DNA of 34,168 nt from an uncultured Flavobacteriales bacterium (GTDB lineage: Bacteria > Bacteroidota > Bacteroidia > Flavobacteriales_G > Salibacteraceae): contig CAJXNO010000030.1 in assembly GCA_913057205.1 (NCBI GenBank), positions 1 to 34,168 of the forward strand. Reading direction: 5' to 3'. The notes under the pieces are model-generated. The model saw only the letters and a list, made by a program, of their open reading frames with translations. It did not search any database and was not told the DNA's origin. Below are positions 6,610-29,740 of this stretch, piece by piece (the stretch's first letter is position 1; every line of letters starts with the position of its first letter). Position numbers and translations under genes: made by a program.

Positions 6610-7473
6610 ATGCGGAAGCGGAAGGCTTGGAAATGGACCATCCTAGGGCTAGTGTTGCTTCTGGCGTGCGAAACCACCGATCATGAGGGCTTTAAACGCG
6701 TGGATAACTCCATTCATCTCAAGTGGCGAACACTCGGCGATGAATCTCGAGCCGTTACTGCTGAGCGCATCGTAAGTCTTTCTGTAAGGCTTCGAAACCT
6801 AGCCGGTGATGACATTGCCTTGAAAAAGGTAGATCGCGTGCGCTTTGAAGAAGGTCATTGGCCGCGTCCCATTGCCGATCTGTTGCTCAACAAAGGCGAA
6901 GGCGATGAATTCTTGATCCGTGGGCGTTTAGATGAGTTGATGATCCGCGATTGGTTTGCTCCGGTGGTTTTGGGGGCAGATGATGCGGTGCTAGAATTGG
7001 AAGTGGTGGTCAATGAAGTATTGACCGAGGAAGAACTTCGTCAACGTAGAGCACAAGAGCGCGTGGCAACCGACAATGAGCTCGAAGGATTACGATGCTT
7101 ATCCTTGGCCAAGGATAGCCTTGGATTTACCGATGCTGATTTTCAGGATGGCATCTATTTCCGTTCATTGAAACCGGGTAGAGGAGCGCGCCCAGAAAGC
7201 GGTAAACTGGCACGTGTGCACTACAAGACCTACCTGTGCGATGGGAGCATGGTAGACGATACCTATCGAGCAGAGGAATTTGAATACCCCATCGGAAAAC
7301 CGGATCAAGTGCTTCCAGGCTTTGGCGTGGCTATTGCTCGGATGCGGGTGGGTGAAACAGCTTTGTTCATTGTACCATCAGCACTGGCATTTGGTGAGCG
7401 TGGTTCATCTTCAGGCTTGGTACCACCGCACACGGCATTGATCTATGAGGCCACCTTGCTTGAACTGCGCTAA
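6610..7473 (+). CDS. FKBP-type peptidyl-prolyl isomerase lipoprotein, two domains
   Basis: The ATG at 6610 begins one base after the stop of the GldI-like gene and gives MRKRKAWKWTILGLVLLLAC, a lipoprotein signal with Cys20. ATG 6598 and TTG 6595 are also in frame but overlap the upstream gene. Residues about 30-145 look like a highly diverged FKBP-like domain followed by a charged linker (TEEELRQRRAQERV). Residues about 190-287 form a clearer FKBP domain, with VHYKTYLCDGSMVDDTY, VLPGFGVAIARM and AFGERGSSSGLVPPHTALIYEATLLEL. The tryptophan of the VIPGW motif is Phe and the AYG tyrosine is Phe, so activity may be reduced. It is the middle member of three adjacent FKBP genes and probably shares a transcript with the two upstream genes. 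The role is likely folding or chaperoning of envelope proteins. Confidence 0.82.
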   Translation: MRKRKAWKWTILGLVLLLACETTDHEGFKRVDNSIHLKWRTLGDESRAVTAERIVSLSVRLRNLAGDDIALKKVDRVRFEEGHWPRPIADLLLNKGEGDEFLIRGRLDELMIRDWFAPVVLGADDAVLELEVVVNEVLTEEELRQRRAQERVATDNELEGLRCLSLAKDSLGFTDADFQDGIYFRSLKPGRGARPESGKLARVHYKTYLCDGSMVDDTYRAEEFEYPIGKPDQVLPGFGVAIARMRVGETALFIVPSALAFGERGSSSGLVPPHTALIYEATLLELR

Positions 7474-15924: not shown

Positions 15925-15964
15925 AATCCCTCTGCCGCATGCCGTCAGGGGGATTTTCTTTTTC
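15925..15964 (+). terminator. Intrinsic terminator after nqrF
   Basis: The left arm AATCCCTCTG (15925-15934) pairs with CAGGGGGATT (15946-15955) with one G:U pair, an 11-base loop and a following TTCTTTTTC tract. It separates nqrF from apbE. It also contains an in-frame ATG that could be mistaken for the apbE start. Confidence 0.75.
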
Positions 15965-15974
15965 CTTTGCATTC

Positions 15975-17084
15975 ATGAAATCCATGCTTAGAAACGTCCT
16001 CTACTTTTTATCAATCTTGATTATGGTAGGCTGCAAGCCAACGATGGAGAAAACATCGTCTGAAGATTTTAAGCGTAGCATACGAGGACAAGCACAGGGC
16101 ACCACGTGGAGCATCGTGTACTACGATCTGCAAGAGCGAGACTTTAAACCCCAAGTTGATAGCATTCTAGCCGCGATTGATCAGAGTGTGTCTACCTATT
16201 TAGAAGGGTCTACGATCGACCGTTGGAATAAGTCAGACAGCGGCGCTATGATCGATGAGCTTTTCTTGGAGTTATTGCTTCAGAGCTGGGAGGTGTATCG
16301 GCAAACGAACGGTGCATTCGACCCCACGGTGAAGCCCTTGGTGAGCTATTGGGGATTTGGTCCAGAACGCTACATGCACCCAGAGCAGGCGGATCCTGCA
16401 GTAATCGACAGTTTACTGACATTGGTAGACTTTGATACGCTGCGCTTACGTCGCAGCGAGCAGCGTTCCATGAGGCTGGATGAGCTGCAACAAGGAAAAA
16501 CGGGTAAAGGATCGTGGTTTTTAGAGAAGCCGATTCCCGGAATGCAACTGGATTTCAATGCGATCGGACAGGGATGGAGTGTAGATAAGATTGGAGCATT
16601 CTTAGCGGAACAAGACATCGAGATCTTCTTTGTTGAACTCGGGGGAGAGATCTTAGCCGGCTATCCGAAGCCAGAAGGCGTGCTCTGGCGCTTTGGCATC
16701 GATAAGCCGGTAGACGGTAACGCAGAACGCGTATTACAAGCGATCGTTAACCTCAGAAATAAGGGCTTAGCCACCAGTGGAAGCTACCGGAAGTTCTACG
16801 AACGTGACGGCGTGCGCTATTCCCATACGATTGATCCAACAACGGGCTACCCGGTTCAGCACAGCTTGCTCAGTGCCACCGTAGTGGCTTCAGACGCCGG
16901 CTATTCCGATGCCTTGGCCACGGCTTTCATGGTCATGGGTAGCGATTCTACCATCCGCTTCCTTGCAGATAAAGATTACTTAGGGGCCTACGTATACCTC
17001 ATCAATGCCACCGAAGGCGAAAGCTTCGAGACCTACACGAGCGAAGCACTAAAAAGCATGATGGAGGAGATAGAAGGGGATTAG
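15975..17084 (+). CDS. apbE: FAD:protein FMN transferase (lipoprotein)
   Basis: ApbE transfers FMN from FAD to threonines of exported flavoproteins; its clients here are NqrB and NqrC. From ATG 15975 the protein has a lipoprotein signal (MKSMLRNVLYFLSILIMVGC, Cys20). I reject the upstream ATG at 15939 because it sits in the nqr terminator loop. ApbE motifs include QAQGTTWSIVYY, DQSVSTYLEGSTIDRWN, GAFDPTVKPLVSYWGFG, LDFNAIGQGWSVDKI, VELGGEILAGYP, ATSGSYRKFYE and YSHTIDPTTGYPV. The C-terminal Mg2+-site residues are in DAGYSDALATAFMVMG. A TTCCTTTG box, one base from consensus, lies just before the ATG, so separate transcription is possible. The stop codon TAG is embedded in the first unit of a 7-bp repeat array. 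The length of 369 residues is normal. Confidence 0.95.
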   Translation: MKSMLRNVLYFLSILIMVGCKPTMEKTSSEDFKRSIRGQAQGTTWSIVYYDLQERDFKPQVDSILAAIDQSVSTYLEGSTIDRWNKSDSGAMIDELFLELLLQSWEVYRQTNGAFDPTVKPLVSYWGFGPERYMHPEQADPAVIDSLLTLVDFDTLRLRRSEQRSMRLDELQQGKTGKGSWFLEKPIPGMQLDFNAIGQGWSVDKIGAFLAEQDIEIFFVELGGEILAGYPKPEGVLWRFGIDKPVDGNAERVLQAIVNLRNKGLATSGSYRKFYERDGVRYSHTIDPTTGYPVQHSLLSATVVASDAGYSDALATAFMVMGSDSTIRFLADKDYLGAYVYLINATEGESFETYTSEALKSMMEEIEGD

Positions 17085-17122
17085 GAGTTAGGGGCTAGGA
17101 GCTAGGGGCTAGGAGCTAGGGA
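17081..17122. repeat. Heptamer array 1 (CTAGGAG/CTAGGGG type)
   Basis: Six contiguous 7-base units read TTAGGAG, TTAGGGG, CTAGGAG, CTAGGGG, CTAGGAG, CTAGGGA. The apbE stop codon (17082-17084) lies inside the first unit. The units alternate A and G at the sixth position. Confidence 0.85.
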
Positions 17123-17127
17123 GTTGC

Positions 17128-17162
17128 CAGTACGCAGTAACCAGTCGGCAGTGAGCAGTGAA
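17128..17162. repeat. Heptamer array 2 (CAGTNNN type)
   Basis: Five contiguous 7-base units all begin CAGT and then vary: CAGTACG, CAGTAAC, CAGTCGG, CAGTGAG, CAGTGAA. The last three positions are free and the period is strict. Confidence 0.8.
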
Positions 17163-17170
17163 AAGCCGAG

Positions 17171-17219
17171 TCTAATTTCTAAGGTCTAACTTCTAATGTC
17201 TAATCTCTAGGGTCTAGAT
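17171..17219. repeat. Heptamer array 3 (TCTAANN type)
   Basis: Seven contiguous 7-base units begin TCTA: TCTAATT, TCTAAGG, TCTAACT, TCTAATG, TCTAATC, TCTAGGG, TCTAGAT. The array ends exactly at the stop codon of the small membrane protein (17219-17221, minus strand). Confidence 0.85.
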
Positions 17220-17407
17220 CAATCTTTCTGACACTGCTCCGTAGGGCGGGCGCCGCAAACGGTACAGCTGCCATCATCGGTTTTGAGGAGTGGGTTGTTG
17301 CTGGCGCACGTTCCGGCAAACTCGCCGTCTTTCTTACCCCAGATCTTTACGGCAATTCCTGCCAGTCCCAACCCCAATAAACCAGCTGCTAAGAGTATCA
17401 ATTTCAT
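17219..17407 (-). CDS. Small four-cysteine membrane protein, candidate NQR maturation factor
   Basis: The 62-residue protein has one N-terminal membrane helix (about 2-23, LILLAAGLLGLGLAGIAVKIW), a short basic/acidic turn (KKDGEF) and a tail with four cysteines: Cys34 (AGTC), Cys48, Cys51 (CTVC) and Cys59. I recognise it as a conserved short Bacteroidota protein found beside apbE. Its plan (one helix, then G-[ST]-C, then C-x1-2-C and a last C) is like NqrM/DUF539, which matures the NqrDE iron centre in Vibrio; the resemblance is in layout and not a proven homology. A perfect TACATTTG -7 box (17412-17419) stands 4 bases before the ATG, so the mRNA is probably leaderless. The gene converges on apbE and its stop abuts heptamer array 3. 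Confidence 0.8.
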   Translation of the reverse strand: MKLILLAAGLLGLGLAGIAVKIWGKKDGEFAGTCASNNPLLKTDDGSCTVCGARPTEQCQKD

Positions 17408-17411
17408 GGTG

Positions 17412-17419
17412 CAAATGTA
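17412..17419 (-). promoter_or_regulatory. -7 box of the small four-cysteine protein gene
   Basis: TACATTTG on the minus strand fits TAnnTTTG exactly and ends 4 bases before the ATG. No clear -33 TTG is seen at the expected distance. Confidence 0.5.
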
Positions 17420-17465
17420 AGAACAAGTCGATGAAAGGAGCTCGATTTAAGGGGAGATTAACGAA

Positions 17466-17528
17466 AGCTGTCTGCTGAGAGCTGTCAGCTATCAGCTGTC
17501 GGCTGTCAGGGGCTAGGAGCTAGGGGCT
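17466..17528. repeat. Heptamer array 4, switching from AGCTGTC to AGGGGCT units
   Basis: Nine 7-base units keep one phase: AGCTGTC, TGCTGAG, AGCTGTC, AGCTATC, AGCTGTC, GGCTGTC, AGGGGCT, AGGAGCT, AGGGGCT. The unit sequence changes part-way, but the 7-base register does not. The last three units are the array 1 unit in another phase. Confidence 0.8.
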
Positions 17529-17543
17529 AGGTGAAATCGTTCA

Positions 17544-17598
17544 CTGTCAGTTCGAGTATCGTTCCGCTGAAAGCGGAACGGTGTATCGAGAACGACAG
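17544..17598. repeat. Palindromic element A
   Basis: Outer arms CTGTC (17544-17548) and GACAG (17594-17598) enclose GTTCGAGTATC, a perfect 9-bp hairpin (CGTTCCGCT-GAA-AGCGGAACG, 17560-17580) and TATCGAGAAC. It resembles the palindromic intergenic repeats common in Bacteroidota genomes. Confidence 0.75.
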
Positions 17599-17637
17599 GA
17601 CCCTAGTAGTGAATAGAATGCTATCGTAATCATTCCG

Positions 17638-17692
17638 CTGTCGTGCTTCGAGACGTTCTCCACCTGCAGGAGGAGAACCCTCAGCATGACAG
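17638..17692. repeat. Palindromic element B
   Basis: Outer arms CTGTC (17638-17642) and GACAG (17688-17692) enclose CGTGCTTCGAGAC, a hairpin with 7-bp arms GTTCTCC (17655-17661) and GGAGAAC (17672-17678) around a central CCTGCAGG, and CTCAGCAT. It has the same length (55 bases) and the same outer arms as element A but a different core. Confidence 0.7.
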
Positions 17693-17726
17693 CTACAAAG
17701 TGGTTTTGGAGCTAGGTACTCGTGCT

Positions 17727-17745
17727 TGTCCGCCAGAGGCGGACA
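17727..17745. repeat. Palindrome C
   Basis: Perfect 8-bp arms TGTCCGCC and GGCGGACA surround AGA. Confidence 0.7.
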
Positions 17746-17758
17746 GGTGTCTTTCGTC

Positions 17759-17778
17759 CCTGCCTGCCGGCAGGCAGG
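17759..17778. repeat. Palindrome D, perfect 20-base
   Basis: CCTGCCTGCC is followed directly by its reverse complement, a perfect 20-base palindrome of a type often seen between Bacteroidota genes. It is followed by three in-phase 7-base units (TTTGTCT, TTCATCT, TTTGTCT). Confidence 0.8.
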
Positions 17779-17819
17779 TTTTGTCTTTCATCTTTTGTCT
17801 GAACCCCATTCCGCTGCCG

Positions 17820-17862
17820 CTCTCGATACGTCACGCCTGCAGCGTGACACTCGAGCTGACAG
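17820..17862. repeat. Palindromic element E
   Basis: Read on the minus strand it begins CTGTCAGCTCGAGTG, then a 7-bp hairpin (GTCACGC with GCGTGAC, 17830-17836 and 17842-17848), then TATCGAGAG. The arms match those of element A in inverted orientation while the core hairpin differs. Confidence 0.7.
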
Positions 17863-17880
17863 CTACGAGAAGTGCCAACA

Positions 17881-17908
17881 GCTAGAAGCCAGAAGCCAGA
17901 AGCCAGAA
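17881..17908. repeat. Heptamer array 5 (GCCAGAA type)
   Basis: Four contiguous 7-base units read GCTAGAA, GCCAGAA, GCCAGAA, GCCAGAA, followed by a partial unit GC. Confidence 0.85.
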
Positions 17909-17933
17909 GCGTATTCTTAAGCAAGGTCACAAA

Positions 17934-17996
17934 GTCTAACCTCTAAGGTCTAAGGTCTAAGGTCTAACGTCTAATGTCTTTCGTCTTTTGTCTCAA
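17934..17996. repeat. Heptamer array 6 (GTCTAAN type)
   Basis: Nine contiguous 7-base units: GTCTAAC, CTCTAAG, GTCTAAG (twice), GTCTAAC, GTCTAAT, GTCTTTC, GTCTTTT, GTCTCAA. This is the array 3 unit in another phase. The array stops one base before the stop codon of the DUF2807 gene (17998-18000, minus strand). Confidence 0.85.
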
Positions 17997-17997
17997 C

Positions 17998-18741
17998 TCA
18001 AAAAACCACCTCCCCACCGCCGCTTTGGTGCCACTTCACTACGCTGGCTGGACCTTTCAGATGAATATTGCCTTGGTGGTAGATTTGGTAATAGAGCGTT
18101 TCCCAAGCGTTTACGTAGGTGTCTCCGGTGCTGTTGTTGTGTACGCTGACCGTTCTGCTTATCAGGTCTTCGGCTCTGATAGGCGCGTAGCCTGAATTGT
18201 AGATGTATACATACCCACATGTGCCAGACGCTTTGATATCCGTGGCTCCGGTGTGTGCGATGATGTCTACGGCATCGCAGTTTACTTGGAGTTCAATGAG
18301 GCCAGAAACATCTTCTACTTCCAGCTTTAAGCTATCGCCCTCGAAGGCATTCTCACCTTTTACACTGCCTGAGTTTTCTGATAGGATGTGCCTCAGTTGG
18401 GTGTAATGCACCCTCACTTGTGGCAGCGGATCTTGTTTACGCATCCAATCACAGCGGTTGTCTTCTGAGATGCGCAGGGTCTCTCCATCCATGGTTTCCA
18501 CAATGCCACCCAGTCCATTTTCTCCGTAGGTCACTTCCAAGAAATCACTGGAATCCTGCACCAGTACCACATTCATGCGGTCTTCTAAGTGCAAGGATCG
18601 AAAAGCCTCAAGCGGTCGCACCTCGGTGACCTGCTCACCCCGTCCCTCAAAGCAGTCTGCCCGCTCCTTGGAGCAAGCCACTAAGCTCAACAAGCCGATG
18701 GCCAGTAGCGTCTTAGATCCGATATGCCAGTCCCAATTCAA
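17998..18741 (-). CDS. DUF2807 (head GIN domain) lipoprotein
   Basis: The 247-residue lipoprotein has the lipobox LVAC with Cys23. The start is TTG at 18741; no in-frame ATG gives a signal peptide. The body is a right-handed beta-helix-like DUF2807 fold. The conserved opening is VRPLEAFRSLHLEDRMNVVLVQ and VTYGENG, followed by ladder-like short strands (LKLEVEDVSGLIELQV, VDIIAHTGATDIKASG, VSVHNNSTGDTYVNAW). The family is abundant in Bacteroidota envelopes and has been called a putative adhesin; its function is not known. The gene overlaps the upstream lipid A deacylase gene by 29 bases, so it is probably translated by coupling. Downstream it runs directly into heptamer array 6. Confidence 0.85.
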   Translation of the reverse strand: MNWDWHIGSKTLLAIGLLSLVACSKERADCFEGRGEQVTEVRPLEAFRSLHLEDRMNVVLVQDSSDFLEVTYGENGLGGIVETMDGETLRISEDNRCDWMRKQDPLPQVRVHYTQLRHILSENSGSVKGENAFEGDSLKLEVEDVSGLIELQVNCDAVDIIAHTGATDIKASGTCGYVYIYNSGYAPIRAEDLISRTVSVHNNSTGDTYVNAWETLYYQIYHQGNIHLKGPASVVKWHQSGGGEVVF

Positions 18742-29688: not shown

Positions 29689-29740
29689 GTATGAAATAAA
29701 CTCTTCGCCCCATCGTTGACGTATTCATTAAATTCAACCC

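Follow-up and report, generated by a model that had tools for sequence, protein, structure and literature searches.

In one spacer of the DNA analysed here (the window, a stretch of 34,168 nt from an uncultured Flavobacteriales bacterium, the host), tandem arrays built from different units stand close together. Why should units of different sequence all be 7 nt long, and what sets the place where such arrays occur?

Heptamer arrays in the spacer and their gene neighbours

An earlier, sequence-only reading of the window had counted six arrays of 7-base units in one intergenic island. A lag-7 self-match scan found all six, each with period 7 (segments 17081-17161, in which arrays 1 and 2 are merged, 17171-17217, 17467-17531, 17880-17910 and 17935-17993); Tandem Repeats Finder also gave period 7 (or 14/21) at the six sites. 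Summed over the spacer (17085-17997), the period-7 score was 123, against 12 for period 4 and 0 for periods 5, 6 and 8-11; in 500 dinucleotide shuffles of the spacer the best period-7 segment never exceeded 9. The island itself is interrupted, contrary to that reading, by a minus-strand gene of 62 aa (17219-17407; MKLILLAAGLL...CGARPTEQCQKD*). By inspection, minus-strand sequence resembling this gene follows the ApbE gene in several genomes of the same genus, without arrays.

Three gene 3′-ends face the spacer, and at each of them an array begins within a few nucleotides, on the coding strand of that gene. The ApbE-family gene (15939-17084, plus strand; Pfam PF02424, E=3e-73) ends with a TAG stop (17082-17084) that doubles as the first TAG of array 1 and shares its register (...GGGGAT TAG GAGTTAGGGGCTAGG); array 1 (17081-17122, plus strand) has the unit TAGGAGC/TAGGGGC, sense to ApbE, and array 2 (17128-17162, plus strand, unit CAGTNNN) is continuous with it at lag 7 over the segment 17081-17161. 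Array 3 (17171-17217, minus strand), TCTAANN on the plus strand and TAGANNN on the minus strand, starts 2 nt past the TGA stop of the 62-aa gene. On the other side lies a DUF2807 gene (17998-18741, minus strand; Pfam PF10988, E=1.5e-25) with the last codons GGT GGG GAG GTG GTT TTT TGA; its TGA is followed by AGACGAA units. Two minus-strand arrays belong to this side: array 6 (17934-17996), which changes from GTCTAAG to GTCTTTT on the plus strand, reads AGACAAAAGACGAAAGACNTTAGAC on the minus strand and starts at most 8 nt from the DUF2807 TGA, and array 5 (17880-17910), AGCCAGA on the plus strand and TCTGGCT on the minus strand, sense to the same gene. Array 4 (17467-17531, plus strand) is the exception: no plus-strand stop precedes it, and it lies ∼59 nt upstream of the start of the 62-aa gene. 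Its unit passes from AGCTGTC/AGCTATC to AGGGGCT within a single unbroken lag-7 segment, so the claim that the change occurs without loss of phase was borne out.

The arrays are oriented head-to-tail and do not show the spaced repeats, terminal inverted repeats or single palindrome of a CRISPR, MITE or REP element. Rfam models gave a single match in the window, a tRNA elsewhere, and the arrays match no structured RNA family. A block of imperfect palindromes (17550-17870, inverted repeats) stands apart from the arrays and belongs to a dispersed repeat, with copies at C16:29267-29482 (83% identical to 17635-17867) and C14:54169-54318 (91% to 17508-17657); one dispersed copy overlaps the final codons of an unrelated gene. 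This palindrome-rich repeat is of the type CTGTC..TTCGAG..hairpin..GTATCGAGAACGACAG, with CCTGCCTGCCGGCAGGCAGG, and heptamer tracts adjoin it in the copies listed. The 3′-end of the DUF2807 gene resembles two other gene ends of the host genome (C2 ∼96746-96761 and C16 ∼29720-29735). The three belong to different gene families, and all end in ...GTGGTTTTT(TGA/TAG)..AGACGAAAGAC with an AGACGAA array behind; it looks as though gene 3′-ends were copied from one locus to another.

One step, many units, in the host and in other genomes

The host-genome scan covered 1.6 of 2.83 Mb. With a score of at least 18 we found 32 period-7 segments, whereas no period outside the multiples of 7 gave more than three and a Markov shuffle gave none; at a threshold of 14 the number of period-7 segments rose to 53. 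Segments with an exact tandem pair fall into 22 unit classes. The tracts form ∼31 islands, all of them intergenic, with only ∼7% of the sequence outside called ORFs; ORFs were called by length alone, with no annotation. Two contigs, C2 and C14, make up 13% of the sequence read and carry 26 of the 53 tracts (p=2e-12); for the idea of a replication terminus, the GC skew of contigs showed no clear link to the tract clusters. Units change in phase elsewhere too, at C2:112470 (AGGAATTx4 ... AGGAGCTx4 AGAAGCC) as in arrays 4 and 6 of the window.

Period 7 was again dominant in G182, a genome of another family in the same class, with 21 segments scoring at least 18 against at most three; by a simple ORF call, 5 of its 40 tracts are inside ORFs. 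The pattern of the window's first unit, TAGGNGC, was found at 116 or more loci, in Cyanobacteria, Proteobacteria, Planctomycetes, Verrucomicrobia, Frankia, Gemmatimonadetes, Elusimicrobia, Uhrbacteria and others. With the query arrays taken out, these pan-phylum loci still had 70 period-7 segments, and no period outside the multiples of 7 had more than 14. A 7-base step regardless of unit, as the sequence-only reading had proposed, thus holds in the host, in G182 and at the pan-phylum loci: the genome-wide scan it had suggested revealed an excess of period-7 tracts, and unit types did not come each with a period of its own. The Bacteroidota setting in which it had placed such tracts is too narrow, as they occur in many other phyla.

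No tract is present at the orthologous ApbE 3′-ends of 12 relatives, 11 of the same genus; therefore, the tract at this gene end is a recent gain. The distribution is patchy: of 395 genomes searched in the class, 9 have GCTRTCR arrays, and the other members of the host's genus among them have none. In one pair of Pseudoalteromonas species an orthologous array (L300 ∼6700-6850, L308 ∼680-760) consists of GAGATGC then TAGGTGC in one and of TAGGTGC only in the other; the flanks are 91-95% identical, and both unit and copy number differ. The last codons of the gene differ, in this pair, at the same base as the units (AAGATGC / AAGGTGC). After the orthologue of the host gene at C14:50934, a same-genus genome (G011, locus L376) has a period-7 tract with a different unit, GTGGTTC; here it may be the place rather than the unit that is shared. 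A tract with an 8-nt step, GTAAAGGC repeated, follows another stop codon of the host (C7 ∼51721-51840, locus L045), a rarer relative of the heptamer tracts.

Unit classes turn up again in other genomes a little more often than chance predicts. Their presence at many loci, even in remote phyla, together with the three like-ended genes described above, could suggest that gene ends receive heptamer arrays, along with short flanks, as copies made by a mobile element or a reverse transcriptase. We consider this highly improbable: in the loci inspected there was no common terminal sequence or linked enzyme, and shared ends are few. The sequence-only reading had thought of a protein footprint or of template-guided extension, and nothing in the data points to either.

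Stop codons, coding strand and the last eight codons

Among 34 flanking 3′-ends in the host genome, 24 have the outer edge of a tract at a distance of -8 to 19 nt, and no tract comes closer than 13 nt to a 5′-end. In G182, too, 24 of 34 flanking 3′-ends adjoin tracts; 9 of 22 flanking 5′-ends are also within 13 nt of a tract, which may in part be an artefact of start calling. We distrust the abutment near starts in G182 and at the pan-phylum loci (19/51), because TAGs of the arrays make a simple ORF caller put starts beside arrays. At the 116 pan-phylum loci, selected without regard to genes, an array lies within 25 nt of the end of 46 of 62 sense neighbours, but of only 11 of 70 antisense neighbours (p=6e-12). 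Since thresholds (25 nt distance, score 13-18) were set during the work, the p-values should be read as descriptive, with independent checks provided by the tests in G182 and at the pan-phylum loci.

By inspection, the units GGCTGTC, AGACGAA, TAGGAGC and GGCTTCT are in most cases read on the coding strand of the adjacent gene. Tract-adjacent host genes are 12 on the plus and 13 on the minus strand; thus, replication strand is not the cause of orientation. The rule that an array follows a stop codon in coding-strand orientation is valid for many units, not for one; in the window alone, TAGGAGC follows the ApbE stop, TAGANNN the TGA of the 62-aa gene and AGACGAA that of the DUF2807 gene.

The choice of stop codon is biased as well. 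At tract-adjacent ends of the host TAG is used in 18 of 25 cases, against a background of ∼28% (p=4e-6), and TAA in one; at array starts without a TAG ladder the stop is still TAG in 11 of 14 (p=9e-5). In G182, TAG occurs at 13 of 25 tract-adjacent ends, against 19%. Where the unit itself contains TAG, the stop often doubles as a TAG of the array and keeps its register. We nonetheless rejected the idea that the local stop codon seeds each array, since a shared register is seen mainly with units of this kind (8 of 11 TAG genes in G182, 5 of 15 in the host).

These observations bear on a neutral explanation, in which slippage makes 7-nt duplications anywhere and selection lets them survive where DNA is dispensable, the space between stop and terminator being the freest in a compact genome. 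Such slippage is a published hypothesis (as cited in PMC4679880 and PMC4692102), and the explanation agrees both with the strictly intergenic siting of host tracts, in a genome with so little sequence outside called ORFs, and with their avoidance of 5′-ends. However, it predicts neither a fixed orientation to the gene, nor TAG enrichment where there is no TAG ladder, nor a synonymous shift towards G; we hold it to be rather unlikely.

The synonymous shift concerns the last codons of the genes. In the last 18 nt before tract-adjacent stops C makes up 7% (22% elsewhere) and G 41% (24% elsewhere), and the shift is gone by ∼24-40 nt upstream of the stop. It is present in all synonymous classes: R-ending codons have 74% G, Y-ending codons 79% T and four-fold codons 58% G and 5% C, compared with 50% G, 46% T, and 23% G and 25% C, respectively, at other gene ends. 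In the last eight codons third-position G was counted 87 times, with 53 expected and a maximum of 74 among 5000 synonymous resamplings; third-position C was counted 10 times, with 40 expected and a minimum of 24. Amino acids were kept fixed in the resampling, which rules out chance amino-acid composition as the cause, and the shared GGTTTTT ends were taken out, as dispersed repeats link some gene ends and make them not fully independent. A shared repeat family as the driver was rejected (p=5e-10 without that family), and so was deamination of the exposed coding strand (no rise of four-fold T). We also rejected the idea that coding ends have been converted into the unit of the adjoining array: k-mer sharing is not in excess in the host and only slightly so in G182 (p=0.006 at k=6). 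The composition of antisense neighbours was set aside, because the ends in question contain array bases.

Orthologues from five families (54 sequences, nearly all same-genus, with two entries representing one gene) do not have the shift, and their stops are mixed; third-position G in the last six codons is 34% in relatives and 77% here. In the clearest case the peptide KGEKVPVH* is unchanged, and GGC GAA AAA GTG CCC in the relative G009 stands against GGT GAG AAG GTG CCG in the host. The relatives' gene ends are nearly all tract-free; three in one family have other short repeats.

Could the gene end be a selected element, with a G-rich, C-poor coding strand over the last eight codons, then the stop, then the array? 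One conjectural form of this explanation would have the antisense RNA, C-rich and G-poor, act as a Rho-loading site that halts convergent or antisense transcription into the gene, with repeats as raw material. In all synonymous classes, codon choice agrees with a coding strand as rich in G and as poor in C as possible; the shift lies beyond all 5000 resamplings and is derived relative to the orthologues, and tract-adjacent stops avoid TAA. G182 shows the shift too, though more weakly. On the other hand, the same genes in relatives manage without the shift, some arrays have no GC skew, and Rehm et al. 2015 (PMC4692102) saw no regulatory role for GGGNATC repeats. We regard selection of such an element as unlikely. 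Its broadest version, that the 7-nt array forms one strand-polarised unit (G over C) with the stop and the eight codons before it, selected to end or insulate transcription, with any repeat sequence and widely in bacteria, seems decidedly unlikely.

Known heptanucleotide repeats, origin and meaning

STRR sequences of heterocystous cyanobacteria are short tandem heptanucleotides, intergenic and present in many copies; our arrays resemble them in these traits. Having 7-nt tandem units longer than chance and mainly non-coding, as in LSSR/STRR, the tracts are with high confidence members of the known class of heptanucleotide simple-sequence repeats. Mrazek, Guo and Shah 2007, as cited in PMC4679880 and PMC4692102, found heptanucleotide long simple-sequence repeats over-represented in many bacteria and proposed length-preferred polymerase slippage as their source. 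Step, mostly non-coding position, varied units and proposed slippage are common to those repeats and ours; ours differ from that work, as it is cited, in lying behind stop codons, in following the coding strand, and in the TAG stops and shifted last codons of the adjoining genes. The GGGNATC / GGGGA(C/T)T repeats of Xanthomonas and Nostoc (Rehm et al. 2015, PMC4692102) likewise have a 7-nt step, are non-coding and lie near stops on the coding strand, some of them overlapping the stop; they also occur close upstream of starts, on the non-coding strand. They are, however, one G4-forming unit, read as quadruplex biology, whereas here there are many units, mostly not G4-capable and without a GGG run. 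TAACTGA direct repeats (MacGregor 2015, PMC4679880) are intergenic, occur also in Bacteroidetes, share spacers with other heptamers and have a patchy phylogeny, in all of which our intergenic, mixed and patchily distributed arrays are similar. In Beggiatoaceae, though, this single unit lies mainly just upstream of start codons; host tracts avoid starts, and TAACTGA is not among the unit classes listed for the host or G182. What the present data add is that tracts of many different units sit behind stops, mostly TAG, in coding-strand orientation and next to genes with G-shifted last codons; in the literature we found no report of this combined rule.

As the most likely account, with about an even chance of being right, we propose sequence-independent 7-nt slippage and in-phase turnover in DNA exposed behind the stop, directed by the gene and linked to transcription. 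A replication or repair process would duplicate DNA by 7 nt regardless of sequence, making and renewing arrays; point mutations would be re-duplicated at the same step, so that the unit turns over in phase, and purifying selection would keep arrays out of genes. DNA past the stop would be exposed when the transcript sheds ribosomes before RNA polymerase halts (an R-loop or stalled-polymerase zone), and slippage and repair would act in this zone; pieces with gene ends may also be copied between loci. Slippage is probably the source of the step, in line with the literature hypothesis. The sequence-only reading had objected that simple slippage of one unit would not give one period for different sequences; length-preferred slippage has been published (as cited in PMC4679880 and PMC4692102), and an in-phase unit change, being expected from mutation and re-duplication at a fixed step, is no argument against it. 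Arrays start behind stops and follow the coding strand in either direction; therefore, a gene-directed event sets their formation or persistence, and a gene-directed, transcription-linked placement could well be correct, if at slightly less than even confidence.

Several observations count against transcription-linked slippage. The span of the codon shift, ∼24-40 nt, is shorter than expected of R-loops; several units (AGTACTT, AGCTATC) are not G-rich; tracts cluster in few contigs; and the above-chance recurrence of unit classes between genomes is not predicted by slippage. The G182 5′-ends near tracts and the upstream arrays of Rehm et al. 2015 (PMC4692102) speak against siting at stops only. 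Nor does transcription-linked slippage explain the synonymous G shift, which exceeds slippage and leaves room for selection: at four-fold sites C is down, G is up and T is unchanged, though mutation bias should favour transitions, so the shift looks more like selection for coding-strand G over C.

The 7-nt preference of bacterial tandem repeats has been a standing question since 2007, and the data split it into two: what fixes the step and what fixes the place. The rule for the place (behind stops, in coding-strand orientation, with G-shifted last codons) is testable and binding on any mechanism. If the arrays are functional, they would constitute an unrecognised 3′-end element in many phyla; if they are mutational, a repeat-generating process would be localised between the stop of translation and the stop of transcription.
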